Positions 46,456 to 63,561 of a stretch of DNA of 64,000 nt are shown here, piece by piece (position 1 is the stretch's first letter; each line of letters opens with the position of its first letter). Both the position numbers and the translations under genes were made by a program. The notes below the pieces were generated by a model. The model was given only the letters and a program-made list of their open reading frames with translations, had not been told where the DNA came from and did not search any database. Origin of the DNA: Thalassotalea psychrophila (GTDB taxonomy: Bacteria > Pseudomonadota > Gammaproteobacteria > Enterobacterales > Alteromonadaceae); assembly GCF_031583595.1 (NCBI RefSeq), contig NZ_CP134145.1:3720001-3784000 (forward strand). The letters run 5' to 3'.

Positions 46456-46469
46456 TGTAAGCGCTTACA
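46456..46469. promoter_or_regulatory. LacI-type operator 1 (TonB receptor)
   Basis: TGTAAGCGCTTACA, a perfect 14-bp palindrome with the central GCGC typical of LacI/GalR operators, 54 bases from operator 2. Confidence 0.8.
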
Positions 46470-46509
46470 AAAAATTACAATTTGTTAAGCCTGTTTTTTT
46501 AAATAGAAA

Positions 46510-46523
46510 TGTAAGCGCTTACA
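46510..46523. promoter_or_regulatory. LacI-type operator 2 (TonB receptor)
   Basis: A second identical TGTAAGCGCTTACA, 57 bases before the receptor start. Two sites about five helical turns apart could allow DNA looping by a tetrameric regulator. Confidence 0.8.
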
Positions 46524-46580: not shown

Positions 46581-49562
46581 GTGAAAACAAGAACATTTAA
46601 CAAAACTAAACTAGCAACGAGTTTGTCGTTAATATTAGGAGCTTCAGTTATAACTACCACTTATGCGGCTGAAGAAGTTACCGCTGGTGATGATGTAGAA
46701 ATAATAGAAGTTACCGGTATTCGTGGCAGTTTGACGAAGTCGGTTGACATTAAACGCTCTTCAAGAGGTGTTGTAGATGCAATTTCAGCAGAAGATATAG
46801 GTAAGTTTCCAGATACAAACTTAGCCGAATCTCTGCAACGTATTTCAGGTGTATCAATTGATCGTGATAATGGTGAAGGTAGCAAAGTAACTGTTCGTGG
46901 TTTTGGTCCTGACTATAACTTGGTAACGCTAAATGGCCGTCAAATGCCAACTGCGAATATCAATGATACTAGTGCTTCTGATTCTCGTTCATTCGACTTT
47001 GGTAACTTAGCATCTGAAGGTGTAAGTGCTGTTGAAGTATACAAAACCGGCCGAGCAGACGTTGCAACAGGTGGTATCGGTTCTACGATTAACTTAGTAA
47101 CAATAAAGCCATTAAATGCAGGGAAACAAGCAGCGGTTAGCGTTAAAGGTGTGCATGATACATCAAGTGAAGATGGCGATAGCTTAACCCCTGAATTATC
47201 AGGTTTATATAGTGACACATTCGCAGATGGTAAATTTGGTGTTGCAATTACAGGTTCATACCAAAATCGTCAAAGTGGTTCAGCGCGTGCTGGTGTTGAT
47301 AACGGCTGGCGCCCGCAAACAGGTGGCGTTGGTGACTGGGGTTCAGTTGGTGAAGGCCCAAATAACATTAATGTGCCAGCTGATGGCGTAACATATGCTG
47401 TTCCTCATAACGTATTATATGGTTTCAGTGAAGTAGACCGTACACGTACTAATGGTCAATTAACGTTTCAATATCGCCCTGTTGAAAACTTAACAGCAAC
47501 ACTAGATTATACTTACTCAAAATTAGAAGAAGAGTTAAATCAAAACATTCACTCTGTGTGGATGAGCTTGAACTATGCTGGCGGCTCAGAGTGGACAGAT
47601 CCGGATGGCGACAATGTTTCTGCGCCAATGATGATCCATGATATTGATGGCCCTTCTGATTTAGTGAGTCAAGTAGAGCAAAGTGCAAAAGTTAATGAAA
47701 ACGATTCCATCGGTTTAAATTTAGAGTACTTGGTAAATGACAACTTATCTTTTGCCCTTGATTTTCATAGCTCTTCAGCAGAAGCAAAACCTGACAGCAT
47801 TTATGGTAACAGTAATACTATTCAAATGGCGACTTGGACTCGTGCAGAGACAAAAGTAGACTTCACTTCAGACTTCCCTGTCGTAGAAGTTGCATTCCCT
47901 GACGGTACAAACGGTTTAACGCCAGATGACGTTAGAACGACTGGTACAAGTTTCAGAAACAGCTACATGAAATCTGAAATAGAGCAAGTTCAATTAGATG
48001 GTACATATGTATTTGATCAAGGCGTTGTTGAAAGTATCGATTTTGGTGTTGGCTTTAACAAAGTAGAGAACCGCAATGCCTTTGCAGTTGCAGAACGCCC
48101 TAACTGGGGTGGTACTGGCTCTGCAGACGATATTGACGATCAAATGTTACTTGATAGCAAAGATACCATGAAAGATCGCTTTGATAACATGCCGGGTAAT
48201 AAATCAAATATGATCAATGAGTTTTGGGCTGTAGATTTTAAAACAATTGCTGATTTAGTTGGCGATTTATATTCAGACCCTAGCGATACTCAAGCCTGGC
48301 CATGTGGCACAACTATTTGTGCACCGTCTGAATATACAACAGACAGACGTACAGAAGAAGAATCAACAAGCGCATATTTACAAGCTAATTTAGCGTTTGA
48401 AATAGGTGAAATGCCTGCGGCGTTAACCATAGGTATTCGTTATGAGCAAACGGATGTTACTTCAACCACTCTTTTACCAGATGTAGTGAATCTAGGCTGG
48501 GTATCTACTAACGAGTTTGAAATTGTACGTGCAGATGATGCGGTATTCTTTAATGGCGAAGGCGATTATGACTATGTTCTTCCTAACATAGATTTTAACA
48601 TTGAACCTTTAGAAGATGTCATTGTAAGAGCCTCATACAGTGAAACAATTACTCGTCCTGCGTACGGTAATTTAACTGCGGGTAGCCGTTTAAATGAAGT
48701 TCGAAATGGTGGTGCAACGGGTTCTCGTGGTAATCCAGGGTTACTACCTGTTGAATCAGAGAATATCGACCTTTCGCTTGAGTACTATTACGGTGAAGCC
48801 AGTTATGTATCTTTAGGTTACTTCCAAAAAGATGTTGAACAGGTTGTTGGTAATAAAATAATCAATGAATCTCCTTACGATGTAACTGACCCAGCCTCAG
48901 GGGCCCGCTTTGATGCTGCTGTTGCAGCTACTGGTGGCGATTCATCAAATAGTGAAGCAATTCGTGAGAATATAGAACTATCAAACCCAGGTGACCAATA
49001 CATCATTCCTGCTGCAGGCGGAGCAATGACTCAAATTTGGGGTCATCCAACAGAAAATGGCATCTTAGATGTCGATTTTACTCAACCAGTTAACCAAGGT
49101 AGCAATAAAGTAGACGGTTTCGAGTTTGCTATACAGCACTTCTTTGGTGATTCAGGTTTTGGAGCTATGGCCAACCTAACAGTTGTAGATAGTGACATTG
49201 ATTATGATGATGGTGATTTCTCAGGAAATCAAATTACACCGTTACTTGGCGTAAGTGATTCATACAACATTGTTGCCTTCTATGAAAAATATGGTTTTCA
49301 AGTTCGTGTTGCTTACAACTGGCGCGATGACTTCCTACAAGGAACTCATGATGGTCAAGGTCTAAACCCTGTATATGTAGAAGACTACGGTCAACTAGAT
49401 GCAAACATTAGCTATGAATTTAACGAAAACCTTGCTGTATTTGCTGAAGGTATTAACTTAACAGATGAAATCACTCGCAGTTACGGTCGTCATCAGTTAA
49501 TGGTTAAGAACATCGAGCAATCAGGACCGCGTTATAATATTGGTATGCGATATAAGTTTTAA
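46581..49562 (+). CDS. TonB-dependent receptor
   Basis: An outer-membrane active transporter of 993 residues. It starts with GTG with GGGGAGAG 6 bases upstream. After a signal peptide (to about Ala30) come a probable TonB box (EIIEVTGIRGSL), a plug domain (ISAEDIGKFPDTNLAESLQRISGVSI, VTVRGFGPDYNLVTLNGRQMP) and a 22-strand barrel ending SGPRYNIGMRYKF. The pattern fits the TIGR01782 subfamily common in carbohydrate-scavenging marine and xanthomonad bacteria. Imported substrate is probably a beta-glucan oligosaccharide, judged from the nearby GH1/GH3 genes and shared LacI operators. It ends in a strong terminator. Confidence 0.93.
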   Translation: MKTRTFNKTKLATSLSLILGASVITTTYAAEEVTAGDDVEIIEVTGIRGSLTKSVDIKRSSRGVVDAISAEDIGKFPDTNLAESLQRISGVSIDRDNGEGSKVTVRGFGPDYNLVTLNGRQMPTANINDTSASDSRSFDFGNLASEGVSAVEVYKTGRADVATGGIGSTINLVTIKPLNAGKQAAVSVKGVHDTSSEDGDSLTPELSGLYSDTFADGKFGVAITGSYQNRQSGSARAGVDNGWRPQTGGVGDWGSVGEGPNNINVPADGVTYAVPHNVLYGFSEVDRTRTNGQLTFQYRPVENLTATLDYTYSKLEEELNQNIHSVWMSLNYAGGSEWTDPDGDNVSAPMMIHDIDGPSDLVSQVEQSAKVNENDSIGLNLEYLVNDNLSFALDFHSSSAEAKPDSIYGNSNTIQMATWTRAETKVDFTSDFPVVEVAFPDGTNGLTPDDVRTTGTSFRNSYMKSEIEQVQLDGTYVFDQGVVESIDFGVGFNKVENRNAFAVAERPNWGGTGSADDIDDQMLLDSKDTMKDRFDNMPGNKSNMINEFWAVDFKTIADLVGDLYSDPSDTQAWPCGTTICAPSEYTTDRRTEEESTSAYLQANLAFEIGEMPAALTIGIRYEQTDVTSTTLLPDVVNLGWVSTNEFEIVRADDAVFFNGEGDYDYVLPNIDFNIEPLEDVIVRASYSETITRPAYGNLTAGSRLNEVRNGGATGSRGNPGLLPVESENIDLSLEYYYGEASYVSLGYFQKDVEQVVGNKIINESPYDVTDPASGARFDAAVAATGGDSSNSEAIRENIELSNPGDQYIIPAAGGAMTQIWGHPTENGILDVDFTQPVNQGSNKVDGFEFAIQHFFGDSGFGAMANLTVVDSDIDYDDGDFSGNQITPLLGVSDSYNIVAFYEKYGFQVRVAYNWRDDFLQGTHDGQGLNPVYVEDYGQLDANISYEFNENLAVFAEGINLTDEITRSYGRHQLMVKNIEQSGPRYNIGMRYKF

Positions 49563-49584: not shown

Positions 49585-49610
49585 AAAGCCGCTGCATGCA
49601 GCGGCTTTTA
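49585..49610 (+). terminator. Terminator of the TonB receptor gene
   Basis: A 24-bp perfect palindrome AAAGCCGCTGCA / TGCAGCGGCTTT followed by T's, 22 bases after the stop. It separates the receptor transcript from the halogenase operon. Confidence 0.9.
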
Positions 49611-49782: not shown

Positions 49783-51345
49783 ATGAACAACCCCCTTAAA
49801 AAAATTGTAATTGTTGGTGGTGGTACCGCAGGTTGGCTAACAGCCGGCATACTTGCTGCTGAGCACAATGCACATCGCGCTGATGGTTTAGAAATCACCC
49901 TAATCGAATCGCCTGATCTTAAACCTATCGGGGTTGGTGAAGGTACCTGGCCAACAATGAGAGATACCATCCAATCTATCGGTATTTCTGAATATGATTT
50001 TATCAGCTGTTGTGACGTGTCCTTTAAACAAGGTTCACAATTTGTTGGCTGGTGTGACGATACATCTGCCGATAGTTACTATCACCCATTTGTAGCACCA
50101 CACGGTTTTGGTCAATCAAATTTAACCAAACACTGGCAGCAATCAAAAAACTCAACATCTTTTGCTCATACGGTGAGCTTTCAACCGCATTTATGTGACT
50201 ATGGCTGTGCACCTAAGCAAAAACAAACGCCTGAATATGCCGCTGTTGCTAATTATGCATATCACCTAAATGCTACAAAATTTGCACAACTGCTGCAAAA
50301 ACACTGTACTGAAAAACTCAAAGTGAAGCATATCAAGGACCATGTCACTGGCGTGAATGGCAACATTGATGACAATATCCAGTCTATTAGCACCAAACAA
50401 CATGGCAACTTAACTGCTGAGTTATTTGTTGATTGCTCAGGAAGTTCGGCTATTTTATTAGCTCAACATTACAAAATACCTTTTATCAACAAAAAAGACG
50501 TGCTGTTTAATGACACCGCACTAGCAGTACAAGTACCCTATGCCAATGCGAATGAAAAAATTGCATCACATACTATTTCTACAGCACACGATGCTGGCTG
50601 GATTTGGGATATAGGCCTGCCAACTCGTCGTGGTGTAGGCTGTGTTTATGCCAGTGACTATATGACTGACGATGCAGCAGAAGCACAGCTTCGAGCTTAT
50701 TTATCTAAAACACTGCCACAAAATATAATAAAAGAAGCCAAGATTAGAAAGCTGTCTTTTACTCCTGGTTATAGAGAGAAGTTCTGGCACAAAAACTGTG
50801 TGGCTGTTGGAATGGCATCAGGCTTTCTTGAGCCACTGGAAGCATCTGCACTGGCATTAGTAGAATTATCCGCCAAAATGATCGCCAAAGAACTGCCCGC
50901 TGAGCAATCAATCATGCCAATTACTGCCGAGCGATTTAATCGTCGTTTCCATTATCGCTGGCAACGTATCATTGAATTTTTAAAGCTGCATTATGTGCTT
51001 AGCAAGCGCAGCGCAAAATACTGGCAAGACAACAAAGCTACAAACACCATACCTGATCGTTTACAGCAACTGTTGGCTTTATGGCAATACCAAGAGCCAA
51101 CCTTTAATGACTTTACCGAAATTGAAGAAATCTTTCCGGCTGCCAGCTATCAATACATTCTTTATGGTATGGGATTTAAAACCCAAGTTAGAGCAACATC
51201 AAGGCGAATTGATAACGAATTGCTTAGTGAAAAGCTTATAACCGAAAACCAACAGTTATGCCAAAAGTATTTGGCAGGCTTACCGACAAATCGTGAACTA
51301 ATTGACCATATCATTCATCTTCAAATGAATAAAAAGGTATGCTAA
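49783..51345 (+). CDS. Flavin-dependent tryptophan halogenase-like protein 1
   Basis: A 520-residue member of the flavin-dependent halogenase family (Trp_halogenase). The FAD loop is VGGGTAGWL (11-19), followed by VGEGTWPT. Lys82 (VSFKQGSQF) aligns with the chlorinating Lys79 of RebH/PrnA, and GFLEPLEASAL (347-357) holds the conserved glutamate. The usual WxWxIP motif reads W273-I-W275-D-I-G, so its proline is missing. The enzyme would need FADH2 from a flavin reductase, not seen nearby. First gene of an operon with SapC, an oxygenase, a second halogenase and a deacetylase, next to a TonB receptor. Natural substrate unknown; free indole, peptide Trp or a non-halogenating role are all possible. 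Confidence 0.85.
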   Translation: MNNPLKKIVIVGGGTAGWLTAGILAAEHNAHRADGLEITLIESPDLKPIGVGEGTWPTMRDTIQSIGISEYDFISCCDVSFKQGSQFVGWCDDTSADSYYHPFVAPHGFGQSNLTKHWQQSKNSTSFAHTVSFQPHLCDYGCAPKQKQTPEYAAVANYAYHLNATKFAQLLQKHCTEKLKVKHIKDHVTGVNGNIDDNIQSISTKQHGNLTAELFVDCSGSSAILLAQHYKIPFINKKDVLFNDTALAVQVPYANANEKIASHTISTAHDAGWIWDIGLPTRRGVGCVYASDYMTDDAAEAQLRAYLSKTLPQNIIKEAKIRKLSFTPGYREKFWHKNCVAVGMASGFLEPLEASALALVELSAKMIAKELPAEQSIMPITAERFNRRFHYRWQRIIEFLKLHYVLSKRSAKYWQDNKATNTIPDRLQQLLALWQYQEPTFNDFTEIEEIFPAASYQYILYGMGFKTQVRATSRRIDNELLSEKLITENQQLCQKYLAGLPTNRELIDHIIHLQMNKKVC

Positions 51346-51372
51346 TTAATAATTATAAAAACAGGAGTTTCC

Positions 51373-52104
51373 ATGGCGAATCACGCTTTTTTAAATAACG
51401 TTGACCATCAAGACCTAAAAATTATTACTGAAAAATCAGAAAAATATGGCAATAATAAAATGTACAGTGCCATATACCCATTTGAGTTTAAAAATGCCCA
51501 GGCTGACTACCCTATCTTTTTCTATAAAGATCAAGAGAACAATGCTTATACTGCTCTGGCATTGTTTGGCTTTGAAGGTAAGGAAAATCTATATCTTGAA
51601 AATGATAAATGGAATGCCAGTTATATTCCATTAATGGTGGAAAGAGAGCCTTTTTTAATCGGTAAACAAACCGTTGTTGAAAATGGCGAAAGCACAGAAA
51701 ACCCTGTCATTCATATTGACCTGGATAACCCAAGAGTAAATAAAGACCAAGGCGAGAAAATTTTCTTATCGCATGGTGGTAATAGTGAATACATCAATAA
51801 AATCAGTACCACCTTAAAAGCACTACATGACAGTAAAGAGTCTACCGACTTGTTTTTCAGTACCCTTTCAGAGCTAGACCTTATTGAGCCTTTTAATTTA
51901 GATATTCAGTTACAAGATGGCTCAAATCATCGTTTAGCTGGCTTTCATACCATCAATGAAGAAAAACTGACCGGACTATCTGGTGAGCAGCTTGAACAAT
52001 TAAACAAGTCTGGATTATTGATGCTTATTTACATGGTCATAGCCTCTCAGTCTAATATCGGCGGCTTAATCCAGAAGAAACAAGATAAAGTACAACCAAA
52101 GTAA
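51373..52104 (+). CDS. SapC family protein
   Basis: A 243-residue protein with the SapC pattern: an N-terminal MYSAIYPFEFKNAQADYPIFF segment, ALALFGFEGKENLYL, WNASYIPLMVEREPFLI and a C-terminal domain ending LMLIYMVIASQSNIGGL. SapC was first linked to S-layer or peptide-resistance functions, but this version is cytoplasmic-looking (no signal peptide) and is often found beside TonB receptors and tryptophan halogenases. The start has AGGAG 5 bases upstream, 27 bases after halogenase 1. The following oxygenase frame continues in the same phase directly after its TAA. Confidence 0.82.
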   Translation: MANHAFLNNVDHQDLKIITEKSEKYGNNKMYSAIYPFEFKNAQADYPIFFYKDQENNAYTALALFGFEGKENLYLENDKWNASYIPLMVEREPFLIGKQTVVENGESTENPVIHIDLDNPRVNKDQGEKIFLSHGGNSEYINKISTTLKALHDSKESTDLFFSTLSELDLIEPFNLDIQLQDGSNHRLAGFHTINEEKLTGLSGEQLEQLNKSGLLMLIYMVIASQSNIGGLIQKKQDKVQPK

Positions 52105-52233
52105 ATAGTAACTTTTGATGAGGCAGTTGTTATCAGCGATATATTTAGTCAGATAAAACCAGTTGAGCAGGTATCAAGCTGTAGTGCTGAAAATATTCCT
52201 GCCAAGGTTTTATCATCAACACAACCTATCATT

Positions 52234-53154
52234 TTGAAAGGACTGGTAAAGCATTGGCCTATTGTTTGTGCTGCGAATGAATCAAACGAATCAGCGGTGA
52301 ATTACTTACAACAGTTTTACCAAGGGATGCCGGTAGGAGCAGGCTTTGGTGAAAGTAAGGATAATGGCCGTTTATTTTACAATGATGATTTATCAGGTTT
52401 TAATTTTGACCGCAAAACCATTGCCTTAGATGCTTTCTTAACAGAACTGCTAAAACCTGATCAGCAGCCATCCGCAGCAAAATATGTTGGCTCTACTGAC
52501 ATCAATAAGTTGCTGCCAAGTTTTCGAGAGCACAATGATTTACCGGCGTTAAGTGAATTTAAGCCATTAGCGAGCATTTGGTTAAGTAATCGCTCTCGTA
52601 TTGCTGCTCATCATGATACACCTAATAACATTGCCTGCTGTGTAGCCGGCAAAAGACGCTTTACCTTATTTCCTCCTGAGGAAGTTAAAAATTTATATAT
52701 TGGTCCGCTAGACCATACACCTGCGGGGCAAGCAATTAGCTTAGTAGACTTTTATGAACCTGACTTTGATCGTTTCCCAAAATTTAAACAGGCATTGGCA
52801 AATGCGCAAGTGGCGGAACTAGAACCAGGCGATTGTTTGTTTTTACCCAGTATGTGGTGGCACCATGTTGAAGGCTTAGATAATTTTAATATATTAATAA
52901 ATTATTGGTGGCAAACAACCAATTTACAGATGGGTGCAGGTATGGATGCGCTTTATCATGCTTTGCTCAACATTAAAGATTTACCTGAGCAACAAAAGCT
53001 TGCCTGGCAGGCAATGTTTGAACATTATATTTTTAACGTTGATGAAAATGCCTTAGCTCATATCCCTGAAGATAAACTTGGTATTCTTGATTCAAATTCA
53101 GATATGGCTGCTAGAAAAATACGAGCCATGTTATTAAACAAACTTAATCGTTAA
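52234..53154 (+). CDS. Cupin/JmjC-like Fe(II) oxygenase
   Basis: A cupin_8/JmjC-like dioxygenase. From the TTG at 52234 it has 306 residues; HxD metal ligands are His126 and Asp128 (IAAHHDTPNN) and the distal His lies in MWWHHVEGL (210-211). AGKRRFTLFPPEEV and EPGDCLFLP are typical. The frame is open back to 52105, right after the SapC stop, and those 43 extra codons (FDEAVVISDIFSQI ... QPIIL) look like the missing N-terminus, yet contain no ATG, GTG or TTG. The true start is therefore unresolved: rare start codon, readthrough of SapC TAA, or a mutated start. Such enzymes hydroxylate protein or small-molecule side chains with 2-oxoglutarate. Confidence 0.8.
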   Translation: MKGLVKHWPIVCAANESNESAVNYLQQFYQGMPVGAGFGESKDNGRLFYNDDLSGFNFDRKTIALDAFLTELLKPDQQPSAAKYVGSTDINKLLPSFREHNDLPALSEFKPLASIWLSNRSRIAAHHDTPNNIACCVAGKRRFTLFPPEEVKNLYIGPLDHTPAGQAISLVDFYEPDFDRFPKFKQALANAQVAELEPGDCLFLPSMWWHHVEGLDNFNILINYWWQTTNLQMGAGMDALYHALLNIKDLPEQQKLAWQAMFEHYIFNVDENALAHIPEDKLGILDSNSDMAARKIRAMLLNKLNR

Positions 53155-53180
53155 TCACAACAGTAAACATAGGTGATACA

Positions 53181-54665
53181 GTGCAAGATAAAAGAATAAA
53201 AAAGGTTGTCATTGCTGGTGGTGGAACTGCTGGTTGGATGGCCGCAGCGGCATTATCGAAGCTACTAGGCAAGAACCTTGATATTACCCTGGTAGAATCG
53301 GATGAAATCGCAACCGTAGGTGTTGGGGAAGCAACGATACCAACGCTGCAATATTTTCATAAATTATTGAACATTAATGAAGCCGAGTTTTTAAAAGAAA
53401 CTCATGGCACGTTTAAGTTAGGTATTAAGTTTGAAAACTGGCGTGCTAAAAATGAAGATTACCTGCACGCCTTTGGCGTAACAGGTCAAGATTGTTGGGC
53501 TGCTGGCTTTCAGCATTTTTGGCTAAAAGGTCGCCAGCAAGGTATTGCCAGTGATTTTGGTGATTATTGCTTGGAACAAGTAAGCGCGGTAAGCGAAAAA
53601 TTTGCACACTTACCAAATAACGGCCTTAACTATGCCTATCATATTGATGCAACACGTTATGGACAATACCTTAGAAAAATGAGCGAAGCTCATGGCGTTA
53701 CGCGTGTTGAAGGAAAAATAGAACAAGTAAAACAAAATCATGAAACAGGCTTTATTGAGTCTTTAAGTTTAGCCAATGGCAAAGTAGTTGAAGGCGATTT
53801 ATTTATCGACTGTACCGGTCAGCGCGCATTGTTAATTGAAGGTGCATTACACACTGGTTTTGAAGACTGGTCGCATTGGCTACCTTGTGACTCTGCCATT
53901 GCAGTGCAAACTAAGTCGGTTGCTGAAGCAATTCCATATACCCGCTCCATTGCTCATGACTTTGGTTGGCAGTGGCGCATCCCATTACAGCACCGAGTTG
54001 GTAATGGTATGGTGTATTGCAGTAAATTTGTCAGCGATGAACAAGCCAAAGCTGTACTTGAAGAAAACCTGGTCGGTGAAAAAATTACCGAGCCACGAGT
54101 AATTAAGTATCGAACTGGTACAAGGCGTAAACATTGGAACAAAAACTGTGTTGCGGTTGGCCTTTCAAGTGGATTTTTAGAACCTCTAGAGTCCACCAGC
54201 ATTCACCTTATTCAACAATCAATTGTACGTTTAATGCGGATGTTTCCTCACACTGGAATTAAGCAAACTGATATTGATGAATTTAATTTGCAAACCAAGT
54301 TTGATACCGAAACAACCAGAGACTTTATCATTTTACATTATTGCCAGCACAATCGAAGCGATACAGAATTTTGGCGTCATTGTCGCAATATGCCGATCCC
54401 TGAGCGATTATCTCATCGTATTGAACTGTTTAAAGAAACAGGGCGAGTATTTCGCAAAAACAATGAATTATTTGATGATTCATGGATGCAGGTGATGATT
54501 GGTCAAGGTTTAATTCCTGAAAGTTACCACCCTATTGTAGATAATATGAGTGATGATGAATTAATTCGCTTTTTAGATCATATAAAATCCAATATTAAAG
54601 GCACTGTAAGTCAGTTGCCAAATCATCAAGCTTTTATAAAACAGTATTGCAATTCCGGCGATTAA
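53181..54665 (+). CDS. Flavin-dependent tryptophan halogenase-like protein 2
   Basis: A 494-residue paralogue of halogenase 1 with more canonical motifs: AGGGTAGWM (12-20), VGVGEATIPTL, Lys79 in GTFKLGIKF (the same position number as RebH and PrnA), the WQWRIPL motif, and GFLEPLESTSI with the catalytic Glu. GTG start with AGGTGA just upstream, 26 bases after the oxygenase. It is more likely than halogenase 1 to be a true halogenase. Whether it and halogenase 1 act in sequence or as a complex is unknown. Confidence 0.87.
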   Translation: MQDKRIKKVVIAGGGTAGWMAAAALSKLLGKNLDITLVESDEIATVGVGEATIPTLQYFHKLLNINEAEFLKETHGTFKLGIKFENWRAKNEDYLHAFGVTGQDCWAAGFQHFWLKGRQQGIASDFGDYCLEQVSAVSEKFAHLPNNGLNYAYHIDATRYGQYLRKMSEAHGVTRVEGKIEQVKQNHETGFIESLSLANGKVVEGDLFIDCTGQRALLIEGALHTGFEDWSHWLPCDSAIAVQTKSVAEAIPYTRSIAHDFGWQWRIPLQHRVGNGMVYCSKFVSDEQAKAVLEENLVGEKITEPRVIKYRTGTRRKHWNKNCVAVGLSSGFLEPLESTSIHLIQQSIVRLMRMFPHTGIKQTDIDEFNLQTKFDTETTRDFIILHYCQHNRSDTEFWRHCRNMPIPERLSHRIELFKETGRVFRKNNELFDDSWMQVMIGQGLIPESYHPIVDNMSDDELIRFLDHIKSNIKGTVSQLPNHQAFIKQYCNSGD

Positions 54666-54671
54666 ATTTAA

Positions 54672-55487
54672 ATGATGCAAATAAATAGCTCTAAGTTGTA
54701 TGTTTTAATGTTTGTTGCTTCAGCAATGGCATTACCCACATTTGCTACGGAGCAATTTATTTGGCCTAATAATACCAAAGCCGCCATAAGTCTTTCTTAT
54801 GATGATGCCTTAAATAGCCAGTTAGATAACGCAATCCCTGCGCTTAATAGCTTAAACTTAAAAGGCTCATTTTATTTAACCCTCAATTCGCCAACAGTAG
54901 ATGAACGTTTAGAAGAGTGGCGAAAAGCCGCTAAGCAAGGACACGAACTCGGCAACCATTCAATTAATCATGCCTGTAGTGGCTCTTTACCTGGCAGAGA
55001 TTGGGTTGCGAGTCACAACGACCTTGATAACAAAACCTTTAAAGAGATAATCCAAGAAATTAAAACGGCAAATAGCTTTTTAAAAGCCATTGATGGGGAA
55101 AGTATCAGAACGTTTACTGTACCTTGTACAGATCAGCAGGTAGAAAATAAAAATTACGTGCATGCCCTTAAAGATACTTTTGTTGGTATTAAATCTCAGG
55201 TTGGTAACATCCCTGAAAATATTAATGCATTTGATGTCATGGATGCGCCGGTATGGGCCCCTACCGGCAATTCAGGAGCTGAACTGATTGCTTATGCAAA
55301 GCAAGCAGTTACACACGGCACAATTGCAAATTTTACCTTTCACGGAATTGGTGGCGATCACTTATCTGTATCGACAAAAGCGCATCAAGAGTTATTAAGT
55401 TATTTGGCAGATAATCAAGATATCTACTGGGTAGATACTTATCGTAATATTAGCCTACATATCAAACAACATTCATTGCACAAATAA
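54672..55487 (+). CDS. Secreted polysaccharide deacetylase-like protein
   Basis: A 271-residue NodB/CE4-fold protein with a signal peptide (to about Ala25). Motif 1 has Asp44-Asp45 (SLSYDDA) and motif 2 gives metal ligands His96 and His100 (GNHSINH). Motif 3, usually RxPY/G, reads FTVPC, so it is divergent. The C-terminal TFHGIGG loop could carry the conserved His. Located 6 bases after halogenase 2, the last gene of that operon. It may remove acetyl groups from imported or surface glycans. Two adjacent ATG starts are possible. Confidence 0.82.
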   Translation: MMQINSSKLYVLMFVASAMALPTFATEQFIWPNNTKAAISLSYDDALNSQLDNAIPALNSLNLKGSFYLTLNSPTVDERLEEWRKAAKQGHELGNHSINHACSGSLPGRDWVASHNDLDNKTFKEIIQEIKTANSFLKAIDGESIRTFTVPCTDQQVENKNYVHALKDTFVGIKSQVGNIPENINAFDVMDAPVWAPTGNSGAELIAYAKQAVTHGTIANFTFHGIGGDHLSVSTKAHQELLSYLADNQDIYWVDTYRNISLHIKQHSLHK

Positions 55488-55568: not shown

Positions 55569-58121
55569 TTACTGACAGTTTATCACTGCCCTATCGGCTT
55601 TATTTATCTCAAGCTTAATATTAGCAAATGACAATGTTACTTCATCTTCACTAGACATAACAAAAGACTGATTAATTCTTGCCATATTGGCGCCATTTTG
55701 AATAAAGCAATTCAAATCAACACTAAGCTTTTGCCAACTGTTTATCGGCATAGAGCCAATATATTCACTAATATCGACTTTACCCAAACAGTCTTTTTCA
55801 CAATGCATTTCTAGCATTACTCTCGCAGAAGATATTTGTTCTTTACGCAATTCAAAGGTAATTGCGGCACTCCTTTCAGCATATGAACGGAAGTCTTCAA
55901 CAAAATTGCTTCGTAAGCTTACAGAGCCCTTACCTTCTCCAGTAAAGGTAATCGTACGAGCGTCTTCCTGAATATCTTTATCCATAGTTTTAAGTTTGAT
56001 CGCAGGTAATTCAACAATTGAACTTGTTACTTGTTCTGTGTGTTCACCAGAAGATAAATTAATTTCCCATGGTGCTTTTACTGCTTGTTGAAATAATATC
56101 AACTCCTGCTTAATCTCACCTTTAGTGACAATCTCATTAAGATCATCAGTTAACACATTATCATCACCATATTTTAAGCCAAAACCATACGGTAATAATG
56201 GATCATAATTTTCATCATTGCGGTTAACCACAGTTTGAACCGCTGATTTCGGCCAAGAAAAAGATAATTTTCCTTTAAAGTCATAATTAACAGAACCATC
56301 GGGGTTTGAAAATAACACTTCACTTACGCCTTCACCTTCACTGCCCGGTAACCAAGTAGCAACAAAAGCATCTGAGGCATTTAATTCAGCATTTACCCAC
56401 ATCGGTCGGCCAGATATAAACACCGAAACTACAGGGACTCCCTGTGCTTTTAATTTTTGTAATAATGCTAAGTCTGCTTTATTGCCCCGCTGATAATCTA
56501 GGTTATCAATATCACCGGTACCTTCTGCATACGGCTCTTCACCAAATACCACTATGGCAACATCAGGTTTAGTTTTAAAGTTACCGTCAACAGCTAATTC
56601 AATATTACCACCAGCAGTACTTACAACGTTTTCAAAACCTGCGTAAATAGAACTTCCCCCCGGAAAGTCTGAATTTTCATTACCAGTTCCCTGCCATGTT
56701 ATAGACCACCCCCCTGATTGCTTGCCGATATTATCGGCTCCATCGCCGGCAACCAAAATATTCGCATTAGGGTTTAGTGGTAATATATTGCCTTTATTCT
56801 TCAGTAAAACTAACGATTCCCTTACCGCCTGGCGAGCAACATCTCTATGTTCTTGTGCACCAATCAATTCCACTTTACCTGATACGGCACGATTAGCAGG
56901 GCTTGGCTTGTCGAATATGCCGGCACGAAGTTTAACTCTTAATATACGACTTACCGCATCATCAATACGTGCTTGTGGTATCTCACCCGCTTTAACTTGC
57001 GAAATAGTGTTTTCATATAATGGTTTCCAAGCATCTGTTGGTACCATGAATATATCTAAACCCGCATTAATGGTTTGACTGCAGTTGTCATTAGTACATC
57101 CTGGGATTTGACCATGGCCATTCCAATCACCAACAACAAAACCATCGAAGCCCATTTTGTCTTTTAATACAGTGGTTAATAGATATTTATTGCCGTGATT
57201 TTTTTCACCATGCCAACTATTAAAAGATGCCATAACTGACTGTGCACCAGCCGTTAAACCGCCGACATAACCTTGACCATGAATATCAAATAACTCTTGC
57301 TCGCTGGCAATATTGTTGCCTTGATCATCGCCGCCTTCAGTGCCGCCATCTCCCAAGAAATGCTTAACCGTTGATATTACGCGACTATCGCCTAAAAAGT
57401 CTTTATCTGGATGTCCTTGTAGACCTTTCACTATCGCAGATGAATATTCTCGAACAATCTCAGGATCTTCCGAGTACCCCTCATAGGTACGTCCCCAACG
57501 ATCATCTCTAACAACGGCAACTGTAGGAGCAAAGACCCAATCAATACCAGTAACCATCACTTCTGTTGCTGTAATTGCGGCAATTTTTTCAATTAATTCA
57601 GGATTATTTGCTGCCCCTAAACCAATGTTATGTGGAAACAACGTAGCACCAATAACATTGTTATGACCATGCACGGCATCTGTGCCCCAAATGGTTGGGA
57701 TACTATTGCCATCAATCGAGTCGTCGATTGAAGCTTGATACATATCTTCTGCTAATTTGATCCAATCACTTGGGGTTGCATGTTTGTCGTTATTAGGAAA
57801 TGCTCCACCACCATTTAAGTAAGAACCAAAGCCGTAGGTGCGCATATCTTCTACCGTTATATCGCGAATTTCCGGTTGGATCATCTGTGCGACTTTTTGC
57901 TCAAGTGTCATTGTTGACAATATATCTTTTATTTTTTTCTCAAGCACAACATCTTGTTTAACGGGTATATCGAGCATTGGCCAAATATCAATATTATACT
58001 GAAGTTTAACTCCAGCATCAGCGGTTTTCTCTACATAGCTTTCTTCTGATTGCTCCTTAGAACAACCAACTACAGTAATAAAAAGAGTAGATAGTAATAA
58101 TTTAATTTGTACATTTTTCAT
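55569..58121 (-). CDS. GH3 beta-glucosidase/exo-beta-glucanase lipoprotein
   Basis: An 850-residue glycoside hydrolase family 3 enzyme. The lipoprotein signal (VVGC, Cys20) anchors it in the envelope. The TIM-barrel domain includes WGTDAVHGHNNV, KHFLGDGGTEGGDDQGNN and the nucleophile Asp332 in VVGDWNGHG; the second GH3 domain follows (VVFGEEPYAEG), and a C-terminal jelly-roll-like region ends the protein. The layout resembles the marine exo-1,3/1,4-beta-glucanase ExoP of Pseudoalteromonas. It hydrolyses beta-glucan oligomers, releasing glucose for the adjacent transporter gene, 12 bases upstream in the same operon. Confidence 0.92.
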   Translation of the reverse strand: MKNVQIKLLLSTLFITVVGCSKEQSEESYVEKTADAGVKLQYNIDIWPMLDIPVKQDVVLEKKIKDILSTMTLEQKVAQMIQPEIRDITVEDMRTYGFGSYLNGGGAFPNNDKHATPSDWIKLAEDMYQASIDDSIDGNSIPTIWGTDAVHGHNNVIGATLFPHNIGLGAANNPELIEKIAAITATEVMVTGIDWVFAPTVAVVRDDRWGRTYEGYSEDPEIVREYSSAIVKGLQGHPDKDFLGDSRVISTVKHFLGDGGTEGGDDQGNNIASEQELFDIHGQGYVGGLTAGAQSVMASFNSWHGEKNHGNKYLLTTVLKDKMGFDGFVVGDWNGHGQIPGCTNDNCSQTINAGLDIFMVPTDAWKPLYENTISQVKAGEIPQARIDDAVSRILRVKLRAGIFDKPSPANRAVSGKVELIGAQEHRDVARQAVRESLVLLKNKGNILPLNPNANILVAGDGADNIGKQSGGWSITWQGTGNENSDFPGGSSIYAGFENVVSTAGGNIELAVDGNFKTKPDVAIVVFGEEPYAEGTGDIDNLDYQRGNKADLALLQKLKAQGVPVVSVFISGRPMWVNAELNASDAFVATWLPGSEGEGVSEVLFSNPDGSVNYDFKGKLSFSWPKSAVQTVVNRNDENYDPLLPYGFGLKYGDDNVLTDDLNEIVTKGEIKQELILFQQAVKAPWEINLSSGEHTEQVTSSIVELPAIKLKTMDKDIQEDARTITFTGEGKGSVSLRSNFVEDFRSYAERSAAITFELRKEQISSARVMLEMHCEKDCLGKVDISEYIGSMPINSWQKLSVDLNCFIQNGANMARINQSFVMSSEDEVTLSFANIKLEINKADRAVINCQ

Positions 58122-58133
58122 AATTTAGTTCCG

Positions 58134-59402
58134 CTATTTTGCGATTAATTTTGTTACTGGTTTTGACCCAACCAAACCATAATAAACAATGAATACATAA
58201 CAAATAATTGGTAGAAAAAAAGACGCTTGTAAGCCAATTAAATCTGCAAAAACGCCCTGTAGAACAGGTACCAGTGCACCACCAACAATTGCCATACATA
58301 AAATTCCTGAGCCTTGTGATGTGTGTTTACCTAAACCGATAACAGCAAGGCTGAAGATTGTCGGGAACATAATTGAGTTTGCTAAACCCACCGATAAAAT
58401 AGCCCACATTGCCAAAGCACCAGATCCCATCATTGCCACAACCAGCAATACACAAGCCACGATTGCATTAAATGCCAACACCTTTCCGGCAGATATTTTT
58501 TGCATTACTGCCGCACCAATAAAACGACCGACCATCGCCCCCCCCCAGTAATACGCTATATATTTCGCCGCTTCTGACTCCTCAAGGCTGGCTATATTTG
58601 GGTCAGCAAAAAAGCTAACTAAAAAACTACCAATAGAAACTTCTGCACCAACATAAACAAAAATACCTACCGCGCCTAACACTAAATGAGAATATTGCCA
58701 CGCACTACCGGTAACATTTGAACTTTCATCATGCGCTTGCTCATCTTCAATGTGAGGCAACTTGAGCCATGCGAAGACTGCAGCCAAAATCAATAACATA
58801 GCGGCTAGAAACACATATGGCATTTGTACAGCCGCGGCTTTGTCTTGAGCACTTGCTAGTGCACCCGCAGCTTCATTTAAGATTAAATAAGCCCCAAAAA
58901 ATGGTGCAACCGTTGTACCTAAAGAATTAAACGCCTGAGTTAGTGTTAAGCGTGAAGAAGCTGTTTCTGCTTTACCTAAACAGCTTACATAAGGGTTGGC
59001 TGAAACTTGTAAAAGCGTAATACCTGAAGCCAAAATGAATAGTGCCAATAAAAACACAGGATAACTGTGCATTGAGGCTGCCGGATAAAATGCCAAGCAA
59101 CCGACAGCAGCTATGATCAAACCAGTGACGATACCTCGTTGATATCCATACTGTTTAACTAACTTACCGGCTGGTAATGAAACGATAAAATAAGCGCCAA
59201 AAAAGCAAAACTGCACCAACATTGCTTGCGCATAAGATAAATCAAATACCCCCTTTAAATGTGGAATTAAAATATCATTTAAACAGGTAATAAAACCCCA
59301 CATAAAAAATAATGATGTTAGGGATACTAAGGCAAAATTGTAGTCGCCTGTAGATTGAGATGAGATTTTATTTTCCGTTGACGGAATCGTTGCACCAGCC
59401 AT
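58134..59402 (-). CDS. FucP-type sugar:H+ symporter
   Basis: A 422-residue MFS transporter with about twelve membrane helices, resembling the glucose/galactose or fucose permease (FucP/GluP) family: [34 protein letters not shown] and [11 protein letters not shown] near the N-terminal half. It probably brings glucose released by the GH3 lipoprotein into the cell. First gene of the minus-strand operon; its promoter lies beside two LacI-type operators shared with the GH1 operon. Confidence 0.87.
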
Positions 59403-59526: not shown

Positions 59527-59540
59527 TGTAAGCGCTTTCA
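59527..59540. promoter_or_regulatory. LacI-type operator 3 (divergent promoter)
   Basis: TGTAAGCGCTTTCA, a one-base variant of the receptor operators. It lies between the divergent FucP-type and GH1 genes. Confidence 0.78.
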
Positions 59541-59586
59541 TTTATACCACAAAATTGCTCAAAAGCAATTTTTTTTAACAATTCAA

Positions 59587-59600
59587 TGTAAGCGCTTTCA
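59587..59600. promoter_or_regulatory. LacI-type operator 4 (divergent promoter)
   Basis: A second TGTAAGCGCTTTCA, 60 bases from operator 3, the same paired layout as before the TonB receptor. Confidence 0.78.
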
Positions 59601-61141: not shown

Positions 61142-62470
61142 ATGCTTTCAGTTAAAGAAAAAATGTCATATGGCTTAGGCGATACTGCCAGTAATATCAT
61201 TTGGCAAACAGTGATGATGTTTTTGTTGGTATATTATACCGATGTTGTTGGTTTAGCTCCTGCCGCCGTTGGTACTATGTTTTTACTAGTACGTGTCGTC
61301 GATGCGATCACTGATCCTCTTATGGGGGCAGTAGCGGATAGAACTCGAACTAAATATGGCCAATTTCGCCCTTACTTAGTATGGCTGGCACTGCCGTTTG
61401 GCTTAATTAGTGTACTAGCTTTCACTACACCTGATTTTTCTGAAAGTGGTCGTTTAATCTATGCATTTGTAACTTACACATTGCTGATGATGGTTTATAC
61501 CGCAATTAATATACCTTACTCTGCTCTTGGTGGTGTTATTACTGCAGATCCAAAAGAACGTGTAACGGTACAAACTTATCGTTTTATTTTTGCCATGCTC
61601 GGCGGCGCCTTTATAGCCGCCTGTACTATGCCTATGGTGGAATATTTTGGTAATGGCGACAACGCCAAAGGCTATCAATACACCATGATAGTGATGAGTA
61701 TCATGGGCGTTATTATGTTTTTGCTATGCTTTGCTGGTACTAAAGAGCGAGTAGTCACCCCTGTTTCACAAAAATCTAGTTTTAAAGATGACTTCAAATC
61801 ACTTTGGAAAAATGATCAATGGCGTATTTTATGTTTAGCGGCTGTATCATTACTTACCGGACAAATATTACGTTTTTCTTTATCCGTTTATTACGTGAAA
61901 TATTTCCTTGGCCGTGAAGATCTGGTTTCAGCGTTTATTACCCTAGGCATGATTGGCAGTATTGCAGGTGTTGCTTTAGCTCAGCCGTTAGCGAAAAAAG
62001 TCTGTAAAATTAAAGCCTATATATCGTTACAAACAATAGCCGCAATTATTTGTGCGTTAAGTTACTTTATTGGTAGCGAACAACTTACTTTAGCATTTGT
62101 TGTGTTCTTCTTATGGCGCTTCTTCCTTGAAATGGCAACACCATTACTTTGGGCAAAAATGGCTGATACCATCGATTATGGTCATTGGAAAACCGGTGTT
62201 AGAATTACTGGTATCGTATATTCATCGGTAGTATTTTTTATTAAATTAGGTCTCGCCTTAGGCGGAGCTTTAGCCGGTTGGTCTCTAGCTTATTACGGTT
62301 ATCAAGCCGATATGGAACAAACTGAAGCTACAAAACAAGGGATTTTATTATCGTTTACCTTGTTTCCAGCAATAGGTTCTTTATTAGTTGCTTTCATTAT
62401 GCGTTGGTACATATTAGATGACAAAAAGGTCGCTGACATACACCAACAACTTAATCAGGCTACTGGTTAA
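61142..62470 (+). CDS. GPH-family sugar:cation symporter
   Basis: A 442-residue MelB-like glycoside-pentoside-hexuronide symporter with about twelve helices. The motifs MSYGLGDTASNIIW at the start and VVDAITDPLMGAVADRTRTKYGQFRPYL between helices are family hallmarks. It likely imports beta-glucoside disaccharides for the upstream GH1 enzyme, 41 bases before it, complementing the FucP-type monosaccharide uptake on the other strand. Confidence 0.92.
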   Translation: MLSVKEKMSYGLGDTASNIIWQTVMMFLLVYYTDVVGLAPAAVGTMFLLVRVVDAITDPLMGAVADRTRTKYGQFRPYLVWLALPFGLISVLAFTTPDFSESGRLIYAFVTYTLLMMVYTAINIPYSALGGVITADPKERVTVQTYRFIFAMLGGAFIAACTMPMVEYFGNGDNAKGYQYTMIVMSIMGVIMFLLCFAGTKERVVTPVSQKSSFKDDFKSLWKNDQWRILCLAAVSLLTGQILRFSLSVYYVKYFLGREDLVSAFITLGMIGSIAGVALAQPLAKKVCKIKAYISLQTIAAIICALSYFIGSEQLTLAFVVFFLWRFFLEMATPLLWAKMADTIDYGHWKTGVRITGIVYSSVVFFIKLGLALGGALAGWSLAYYGYQADMEQTEATKQGILLSFTLFPAIGSLLVAFIMRWYILDDKKVADIHQQLNQATG

Positions 62471-62562: not shown

Positions 62563-63561
62563 ATGGCCACAATTTATGAAGTGTCGGAATTAGCAGGAGT
62601 ATCTCTTGCAACTGTTTCGCGAGTAATGAATAACAATGCGAAAGTAAGCGACAAAACGCGAACTAAAGTATTGCAGGCCATGGATAAATTAGGATATAAA
62701 CCAAATTCTATTGCGCAATCCTTAGCGTCTAATCGTACCAATAGTGTCGGTGTATTAGTTTCTGAATTACATGGTGGATTCTTTGGTTTTATCATGGACG
62801 GTATTGAAAACGAACTTCGTATAGCCAACAAGCATATTATTATTACCACTGGTCATAGTGATGAAGCGCAAGAAAAAAGCGCTATTGATTTTTTAATTAG
62901 CCGAAAGTGTGATGCGCTAATTTTACTAACAGATTCAGTAGATGATGACTATCTCATTAGTATTTCAAAAACTATCCCGACAGTGCTTGTTAACCGTAAA
63001 ATAAATGGTATTGCCAATAATTGTATTAGCTTGAATAACGAGCAAGGTGGTTACTTAGCAACAAAGGCATTAATAGAAAAGGGCCACGAAGACATAGCTT
63101 ACATTGCAGGACCAGACTGGAAAGTTGATTCTCACGATCGTCTTTTAGGCCATAAAAAAGCCCTTACTGAACATAATTTAGCTTATAAAACCGAGCTTTT
63201 CTTTCAGGGTGATTTTAATGAAGACAGCGGTTTTGACGGATTTAACCAATTAAAGACAGCAGCAACAAAATTTACTGCAATAGCTTGCGGAAATGATGAA
63301 ATGGCATCAGGCGCGATGAAAGCGGCAAGAAAACAAGGCTTAGATTTACCCAAAGATCTATCTATAGTCGGTTTTGATAATAATATGTTTGCCAGTTATT
63401 TATATCCAGAGCTAACTACTGTAGATAACTCTGCATATTTTATGGGTAAAATGGCAACTGACATTATTTTAAAAAGTGTTTATAAACAAGATGATATTAC
63501 TATCCAGAATGTATTTGAACCAAAATTAGTGCAACGTAACTCTATCGCTTCAATATCATAA
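62563..63561 (+). CDS. LacI-family transcriptional regulator
   Basis: A 332-residue LacI/GalR repressor. The N-terminal helix-turn-helix (TIYEVSELAGVSLATVSRVM) and hinge (KPNSIAQSLASNRTNSVG) are followed by a periplasmic-binding-protein-like effector domain. Gene order (GH1, GPH, lacI) makes it the probable reader of the TGTAAGCGCTT(A/T)CA operators in this region, with a beta-glucoside or glucose derivative as inducer. Assignment of operator to regulator is inference. Confidence 0.9.
   Translation: MATIYEVSELAGVSLATVSRVMNNNAKVSDKTRTKVLQAMDKLGYKPNSIAQSLASNRTNSVGVLVSELHGGFFGFIMDGIENELRIANKHIIITTGHSDEAQEKSAIDFLISRKCDALILLTDSVDDDYLISISKTIPTVLVNRKINGIANNCISLNNEQGGYLATKALIEKGHEDIAYIAGPDWKVDSHDRLLGHKKALTEHNLAYKTELFFQGDFNEDSGFDGFNQLKTAATKFTAIACGNDEMASGAMKAARKQGLDLPKDLSIVGFDNNMFASYLYPELTTVDNSAYFMGKMATDIILKSVYKQDDITIQNVFEPKLVQRNSIASIS

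Follow-up and report, generated by a model that had tools for sequence, protein, structure and literature searches.

Flavin halogenases, SapC and a JmjC-type oxygenase form a cassette with TonB-dependent receptors that may modify the receptor precursor

Introduction

Several flavin-dependent halogenases (FDHs) act on tryptophan that is part of a peptide. MibH, SrpI and ChlH are reported to have this activity, and ChlH also modified an internal tryptophan of an unrelated protein of 1,054 amino acids, which implies that a halogenase can modify internal tryptophans in large proteins. Other members are orphans known only as in vitro biocatalysts: BrvH of Brevundimonas and Xcc4156 do not accept free tryptophan, their native substrates are unknown and a peptide substrate has been proposed for them, and a word search of the two texts on them turned up neither TonB nor SapC. 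Here we analyse a window of 64,000 nucleotides of Thalassotalea psychrophila DNA (contig NZ_CP134145.1), in which two halogenases, FDH-B and FDH-A, are encoded with a SapC-family protein and a Cupin_8/JmjC oxygenase behind a TonB-dependent receptor (TBDT; Table 1). A second halogenase gene likewise adjoins that of BrvH. The arrangement of the receptor and the enzymes is far from chance, as counts of co-localization show, and we propose, giving the idea about even weight, that it is a receptor-linked protein-modification cassette, which would halogenate and hydroxylate, in the cytosol, a protein that is yet to be exported, most likely the precursor of the TBDT.

Halogenase genes lie next to TonB-dependent receptors

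The original prediction, made from the window's sequence, had described a closely spaced run of five genes in one orientation. The reading frames bear this out: the genes from halogenase to deacetylase (49783–55487) are five intact open reading frames (ORFs), all on the plus strand, with gaps of 27, 27, 26 and 6 bases if the cupin gene starts at an ATC codon at 52132. A genome scan with four FDH-A proteins, taken from loci that also bear SapC and cupin genes, confirmed at least 489 relatives of FDH-A, and the best 80 of these were followed as named loci, a sample that leans towards full cassettes because of where the queries came from. In the named loci, some of which are cut by contig ends, we saw a TBDT in 71, the cupin in 72, SapC in 69, a GH3 glycoside hydrolase in 50, a GPH-type carrier in 33, a LacI-family regulator in 31 and a GH1 enzyme in 29. 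The receptor was readable in 69 of the 80, and FDH-B, SapC, cupin and FDH-A were all present in 54 of these 69. All 54 full sets had the same gene order, TBDT, FDH-B, SapC, cupin and FDH-A, and this order is maintained across genera of Gamma-, Beta- and Alphaproteobacteria, the named loci including Colwellia, Thalassotalea, Alteromonas, Shewanella, Rheinheimera, Microbulbifer, Lysobacter, Massilia, Paucibacter, Aquisalinus and Sphingomonas. The CE4-type deacetylase that ends the run in the window was found in 7 of the 80 loci, with a profile built from three sequences that may miss distant members, and we rejected it as a core member. From these counts and the constant order, the conserved unit begins with the receptor, and the deacetylase is a local addition. 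The natural unit is TBDT, halogenase-B, SapC, JmjC/Cupin_8 oxygenase and halogenase-A, elsewhere often joined by a DUF6445 protein; the two halogenases, SapC and the cupin of the predicted set thus stand, whereas the deacetylase drops out and the receptor comes in.

The same association was seen from the side of whole genomes. In six of them, 38 of 39 halogenase genes (one frame, G122 C30 18143, is weak) lie within about 4.1–4.2 kb of a TIGR01782-type receptor, 37 of the 39 on the same strand, against about 2.8% expected from receptor density. Counted by cluster, 25 of 26 halogenase clusters are near such a receptor, the sole exception being G126 C5; a binomial figure for this linkage overstates its significance because the genes are clustered. 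All but one (G186_C1_185309) of the 68 receptors pass the TIGR01782 cut-off, and the receptor candidates scored were 49 of 57 in G126, 49 of 50 in G015 and 49 of 50 in G186. In genome G186 alone there are 12 clusters with 17 FDH genes between them, and a TBDT is never more than 2.3 kb away. T. psychrophila itself has five halogenases in three loci, each with SapC and one of the eight receptors above the TIGR01782 cut-off; at one of these loci (L007), three other genes separate receptor and halogenase. A wider draw of 40 halogenase-selected regions from 15 genomes, overlapping the six, had a TBDT within 5 kb of 52 of 62 halogenase genes and at 5.8–7.1 kb from four more. On three plasmids (3 of 45 records matched, by RefSeq annotation), the TBDT, SapC and halogenase genes are adjacent, with the cupin too in one. 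Among 200 genomes of the phylum, with at most seven candidates scored per genome, a full-length halogenase (>140 bits) occurs in 16, and SapC is present in 15 of these 16 versus 57 of the other 184. Caulobacter vibrioides, used as a control genome, likewise gave matches to PF04820, PF07277 and TIGR01782.

The enzymes that accompany a receptor vary. A halogenase stands behind 25 of the 68 receptors of the six genomes, and 14 of these 25 have an FDH without SapC or cupin; at another locus (L203, 4242–8202), a cupin gene comes straight after that of the TBDT and there is no halogenase, so that one enzyme of the set is alone with the receptor. On the receptor tree, the halogenase label switches about ten times, with eight switches forced by starred branches, and therefore receptors have repeatedly gained or lost enzymes. 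Together, these data show that the link of the halogenases to TBDTs is near-obligatory. The recurrence of the core families beside TonB receptors in other genomes, on which the original prediction had hinged, is what we found, and the cassette itself is well supported; what it does is proposed below.

The spacing of these genes also bears on a hidden pathway for ribosomally synthesized and post-translationally modified peptides (RiPPs), in which the substrate would be a short peptide that is encoded, though not annotated, within the cassette or close to it and is exported or used at the surface. MibH, SrpI and ChlH are RiPP halogenases, yet they sit in natural-product clusters with a short precursor peptide, and we saw none within the cassette gaps. 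The median gaps are 28, 47 and 29 bases, which are overestimates as they run to the point where the profile match begins, and in two loci only 10–11 bases lie between TBDT and FDH-B. We dropped a precursor inside the cassette, for which the gaps are too short; the neighbour clustering covered ORFs of at least 110 amino acids, which leaves room for one in the wider locus, and a RiPP pathway as a whole seems extremely unlikely.

The halogenases belong to a clade whose tested members reject free tryptophan

Both halogenases match PF04820 over their full length, far above the cut-off of 21 bits (Table 1). The closest solved relative of FDH-B is 2PYX (583 bits over 511 amino acids), with 9LTB and 9LU2 also near, and that of FDH-A is Xcc4156 (6Y1W, 636.3 bits), followed by BrvH (6FRL, 478.9 bits), both over nearly the full length, with 9LUQ near as well. 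We take 2PYX to be a tryptophan halogenase of Shewanella frigidimarina solved by structural genomics, and we know of no published function for it. The catalytic glutamate of RebH is E346. Its catalytic lysine has been reported as K79, and the equivalent pair is Lys79 and Glu337 in FDH-A, each kept in 67 of 69 aligned rows, and Lys82 and Glu353 in FDH-B, kept in 56 of 56. The WxWxIP motif reads WQWRIP in FDH-A; in FDH-B it reads WIWDIG, with the final residue off the motif (WxWxIG), and 2PYX has the same change. FDH-A, with its lysine and glutamate kept, is of the BrvH/Xcc4156 clade, and the sequences place the window's halogenases in a clade whose tested members reject free tryptophan.

Halogenation is not the only reaction that such flavoenzymes could carry out. 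They might be peptidyl hydroxylases or other monooxygenases on receptor side chains, similar to QhpG, which dihydroxylates peptidyl tryptophan of QhpC in the cytoplasm before export; the QhpG family (NF049967) is the top NCBIfam match of both halogenases, and FDH-B has the WxWxIG form of the motif. These matches, however, score 37.5 and 39.3 bits, far under the cut-off of 240, for which reason we rejected membership of the QhpG family for both. The halogenase lysine–glutamate pair is conserved in both, BrvH, a relative of FDH-A, brominates indole, and Xcc4156 has been reported to be active on indole derivatives, all of which makes hydroxylation by the flavoenzymes very unlikely in our view.

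The activity of BrvH, which brominates free indole in vitro but slowly, can also be read in favour of a small-molecule product. The enzymes would then make a halogenated or hydroxylated aromatic, such as a defence compound or a signal based on indole or phenol, and the TBDT would be linked to them by regulation or would import the product; the papers that met such genes, in the parts available to us, treat them as secondary-metabolite or organohalide genes. Against this, clustering of unlabelled same-strand neighbours yielded no recurrent biosynthetic family, the 17 FDH genes of G186 in 12 TBDT-adjoining clusters are not explained by a single metabolite and the oxygenases of the cassette are near protein hydroxylases. 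We consider a small-molecule product rather unlikely. A narrower form of the idea, in which the substrate is the aromatic aglycone of beta-glucosides, was dropped, as these enzymes also occur at GH20, starch, alpha-galactoside and agar loci.

As a separate and curious observation, FDH-A and FDH-B both match a 'tryptophan halogenase' family of phages, PHROG 2928; phages are known to use TBDTs as receptors.

The oxygenases resemble protein hydroxylases

From an ATC at 52132, preceded by GATGAGG, the cupin frame stays open, and its first ATG, GTG or TTG comes only at 52234. Homologues begin about where 52132 lies, and in Colwellia psychrerythraea ND2E, the closest named relative, an ATC stands at the same place (L223, 8896–8898) with no ATG, GTG or TTG nearby; the gene probably starts at this ATC. 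The HxD...H triad of the encoded protein (His160, Asp162 and His244) is present in 62 of 62 rows, and its nearest solved relatives are FIH (E 4e-19 over 104 residues) and JMJD5. FIH and JMJD5 are protein hydroxylases.

DUF6445 is a further recurrent member of the set, found by neighbour clustering in 33 of 164 stretches, among them a small number that overlap, and in 26 of the 80 named loci, and it does not occur in the window. Examples at L242 (11564–12283) and L244 (11495–12208) have a conserved HxD...H...R, and the family is predicted to be a P4H-type Fe(II)/2-oxoglutarate oxygenase, its structure model being nearest to OGFOD1, lysyl hydroxylases, Tpa1 and PHD2. Seven of the 200 genomes of the phylum carry it, all among the 16 that bear a halogenase. 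The genome of T. psychrophila has only a weak match (42 bits), outside the window (G000:C1:3320347-3320949), with a TBDT-like match (3317626–3318171) some 2 kb away.

The family name of PF07277, SapC, suggests an S-layer protein. The SapC of the window has no evident signal peptide, by reading of its sequence, and its neighbours are cytosolic, and we tentatively dropped an S-layer role; its structure model is confident (pLDDT 96.5). We propose instead that it may serve as a substrate-binding adaptor or chaperone. Cassette SapC has core residues in common with stand-alone SapC, and where its genes lie apart from receptors, the family would seem to have another setting, different from the first.

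SapC is also one candidate if a protein other than the receptor is the target, the others being a surface lipoprotein, a part of TonB/ExbB or a glycoside hydrolase. The tryptophan tests on the receptors, given below, yielded no clear target, and Trp80 of SapC is nearly invariant in the cassette (62 of 63). Trp80 is, however, also present in 29 of 39 stand-alone SapC proteins, the 14 FDH-linked receptors without SapC or cupin speak against SapC as the substrate and among the profiled families, in the six genomes and the named loci, none is as constant beside the FDHs as the TBDT. Another protein target thus appears clearly unlikely.

The receptor precursor is the favoured candidate substrate

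A protein substrate is the economical reading of these data, and the receptor precursor is favoured among proteins, because the receptor is the most constant partner, the oxygenases are near protein hydroxylases and the tested members of the halogenase clade reject free tryptophan. The earlier suggestion of a protein substrate, possibly the receptor of the outer membrane, gains support from the same three points; sequence tests pointed to no clear target among the receptor tryptophans. In the mechanism that we propose, the LacI-family regulator would turn on the TBDT along with a small set of cytosolic enzymes, and SapC would hold or present the receptor precursor while it is unfolded in the cytoplasm. 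FDH-A and FDH-B would add bromine or chlorine to aromatic side chains, most likely of tryptophan, and the JmjC oxygenase, elsewhere also DUF6445, would hydroxylate another side chain. The modified precursor, which has a signal-peptide-like N terminus (by reading of the sequence), would then be exported by Sec and fold in the outer membrane, where the altered residues could adjust ligand binding or the stability of the receptor. The operon anatomy, the operator-like sites, the catalytic residues and the kinship of the oxygenases with protein hydroxylases are observed; a protein substrate, the TBDT as the target, halogenation as the reaction of the flavoenzymes, the role of SapC and the benefit to the cell are what the mechanism presumes.

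Several observations weigh against modification of the receptor. To begin with the association itself, six of the 62 halogenase genes of the wider draw had no TBDT in the stretch examined, one of them in a set of FDH, SapC and DUF6445 (L076, 9215–14095) with none within 20 kb of sequence; this set adjoins genes for an extracytoplasmic-function (ECF) sigma factor and a FecR protein. ECF sigma factors and FecR are usual partners in TBDT signalling. SapC is widespread without a TBDT, as just 2 of 40 regions chosen as having SapC without an FDH (L078–L117, of which L088 in fact carried an FDH) have a TBDT within 5 kb. The correlation between the distances of FDHs and those of TBDTs (Mantel r 0.51 and 0.61) and the linkage count in favour of modification, but any co-inherited operon would give both. 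In a pair of close receptors on short sister branches (G186_C1_1502602 and G126_C8_287892), the enzymes are present in one genome and absent from the other, which means that modification is at best optional.

The search for a modified residue counts on the same side. We measured the enrichment of tryptophan in each alignment column of the 68 receptors for the FDH-A, FDH-B, cupin and SapC labels, and no column cleanly splits FDH-linked from FDH-free receptors (n = 68). The best column for FDH-A has tryptophan in 6 of 18 versus 1 of 50, and Trp327 is present in 9 of 14 receptors with FDH-B versus 10 of 54 and in 9 of 10 with SapC versus 10 of 58, all of which is confounded by kinship. Trp253 and Trp640 mark the full-cassette receptors (54 and 56 of 57, versus 1 and 4 of 42 receptors without cassette enzymes), and orthology alone explains this. 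Twelve receptors lack FDH-B at their locus (or eleven, as L246, with two FDHs both over the FDH-A threshold, may have one); Trp327, Trp509, Trp640 and Trp914 are kept in 12 of 12 and Trp253 in 9 of 12 (P = 0.06, uncorrected). Trp338 is tryptophan in 47 of 57 receptors with FDH-B and in 6 of 12 without it (P = 0.025, uncorrected), the other six having phenylalanine, and in the six genomes it had no link to FDH-B (3 of 14 versus 5 of 54); it is the only lead for a target residue, and a weak one. The tryptophan content of the receptors compared is alike (1.39 versus 1.25%, P = 0.46), and at residues 243 and 914 the independent pairs drawn from the receptor tree differed too rarely for a significant result. 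No target residue emerged from these sequence tests, which also compared receptors whose locus lacks the cupin; their outcomes were negative, or were weak and confounded by kinship. On account of these negatives, the receptor pair in which the enzymes look optional and co-inheritance, we hold modification of the receptor precursor to be evenly balanced and no better.

The ligands vary and the regulator is probably shared

The original prediction had placed the cassette in glycan uptake, between a TonB receptor and a GH1/GH3 beta-glucoside locus. The flanks are as described, profile matches placing a TIGR01782 TBDT upstream and GH3, MFS, GH1, GPH and LacI genes downstream (Table 1). Across genomes, Pfam scans of neighbours showed that FDH-linked TBDTs adjoin GH1/GH3, GH20, GH13/GH97, GH36 and GH95 enzymes, and the plasmid cassettes adjoin an agarase, GH16 and GH3 by RefSeq annotation. 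The substrates are presumably starch or maltodextrin for GH13/GH97, alpha-galactosides for GH36 and fucosides for GH95, and the neighbours at L006, GH20 by Pfam and NagA-, kinase- and NagP-like proteins by reading, point to chitin or GlcNAc. At L007 (8661–17760), the TBDT, halogenase and SapC are accompanied by saccharopine dehydrogenase, alanine-dehydrogenase-like and Na+/H+ antiporter genes, indicative of lysine catabolism, with no sugar genes, and further scanned neighbours outside carbohydrate function were seen at L048, L038 (a kinase), L071 (its second gene), L075, L051 and L053 (another TBDT). Because the cassettes adjoin genes for so many ligands, no single sugar serves as a shared substrate; what stays constant is the receptor together with the enzymes, and the ligand side varies widely. 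The part of the prediction that stands is the link to a TBDT of one broad subfamily, whereas the ligands are neither beta-glucosides alone nor, as L007 shows, glycans alone.

Operator-like sites tie the cassette of the window to its neighbours. The site TGTAAGCGCTTNCA has seven distinct occurrences genome-wide, four of which are the two 5' of the receptor and the two in the GH1/MFS spacer. A looser form, TGNAANCGNTTNCA, with two mismatches allowed, occurred at chance level across the window, and only the exact sites stand out. An exact site of this form lies within 600 bp 5' of the receptor match in 34 of 68 named loci, against 0.04 expected from its density over the loci. Because exact operator-like sites are shared, the cassette very probably belongs to the LacI regulon of the beta-glucosidases. 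Right behind the receptor stop is a perfect hairpin, and 36 of 69 named loci have some hairpin at the same place, versus 35 of 345 random stretches, a contrast that is inflated to an unknown degree because the random stretches included non-intergenic DNA. The hairpin between receptor and enzymes is possibly a partial terminator or a 3' stabilizer, and it could act as a brake that holds the enzymes scarcer than the receptor.

Table 1 Features of the cassette and its surroundings in the window
Feature	Position	Strand	Basis
Two perfect LacI-family operator-like palindromes TGTAAGCGCTTACA, 5' of receptor	46456–46469, 46510–46523 (span 46456–46523)		Motif search
TonB-dependent receptor, TIGR01782 (TonB-Xanth-Caul) subfamily; proposed substrate	46581–49562	+	669.9 bits, cut-off 310, residues 40–993
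Perfect hairpin AAAGCCGCTG-CATG-CAGCGGCTTT, right behind receptor stop	49585–49608		Sequence
FDH-B, flavin-dependent halogenase, Shewanella frigidimarina 2PYX group	49783–51345	+	PF04820, 384.7 bits
SapC-family protein	51373–52104	+	PF07277, 233.5 bits, cut-off 28.9
Cupin_8/JmjC Fe(II)/2-oxoglutarate oxygenase, probable ATC start	52132–53154	+	PF13621, 248.6 bits
FDH-A, flavin-dependent halogenase, Xcc4156/BrvH group	53181–54665	+	PF04820, 635.1 bits
CE4-type polysaccharide deacetylase-like protein, secreted; accessory	54672–55487	+	PF01522, 55.9 bits
GH3 exo-beta-glucosidase-like protein, Exop_C domain; presumed in same regulon	55569–58121	-	Profile match
GluP-like MFS sugar carrier; presumed in same regulon	58134–59402	-	408.7 bits, cut-off 202.55
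Two LacI-family operator-like sites TGTAAGCGCTTTCA, divergent MFS/GH1 spacer	59527–59540, 59587–59600 (span 59527–59600)		Motif search
GH1 beta-glucosidase, TIGR03356	59676–61100	+	605.3 bits, cut-off 478.5
GPH-type (MFS_2) sugar carrier	61142–62470	+	Profile match
LacI/GalR-family regulator; binding at the four operator-like sites presumed	62563–63561	+	Profile match

Discussion

Open-access full texts, a scope that leaves subscription papers and preprints outside, contained no paper with halogenase, TonB and SapC together and none found to treat the set as a system. A few pair a flavin-dependent or tryptophan halogenase with a TonB-dependent receptor, for example PMC11337851; by word search, PMC2996990 and PMC1790865 do not mention halogenase or SapC, PMC8269204 and PMC12645471 do not mention TonB or SapC, and DUF6445 has no occurrence among the open-access matches listed. 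In two recent papers, one of them PMC11337851, such genes were expressed in Colwellia or Shewanella, and the portions available to us discuss them as antibiotic, virus–host or organohalide genes. The families themselves are known and the neighbourhood is visible in public annotation. Sugar regulons in curated collections include genes named 'tryptophan halogenase', 'SapC' and 'Pass1' next to those for TBDTs, so specialists may already be acquainted with the co-location as such. No system is known to us in which outer-membrane receptors are halogenated.

The halogenases concerned are numerous, with at least 489 clade relatives found, and genes annotated as 'tryptophan halogenase' are mostly discussed as secondary metabolism, while several of the solved enzymes have no known substrate. 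The link to TonB receptors supplies these orphan halogenases with a native partner that is concrete and can be tested. Should the receptor prove to be the substrate, predictions of specificity from genomes would overlook chemistry that receptors for glycans and other nutrients bear. More broadly, and more tentatively, many Proteobacteria might halogenate and hydroxylate side chains of TonB receptors before export by dedicated enzymes encoded next to them, with bromo- or chlorotryptophan and hydroxylated residues tuning ligand binding, a generalization that we regard as possible though doubtful. If true, it would add to receptor maturation a layer not seen before, and it would give a large class of orphan flavin halogenases their native role and bacteria a new way to tune uptake.

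Among known systems, the hydroxylases that the cassette oxygenases and DUF6445 recall, FIH and JMJD5 of the JmjC type and OGFOD1, PHD2 and LH3 of the P4H type, are protein hydroxylases with eukaryotic targets, and we know of no outer-membrane target for any of them. QhpG of the qhp operon differs from the proposed enzymes in that it hydroxylates and in that its target is a small periplasmic subunit. It is nevertheless the closest working model, as a halogenase-related flavoenzyme that is encoded beside its target and modifies tryptophan within a protein in the cytoplasm before export.

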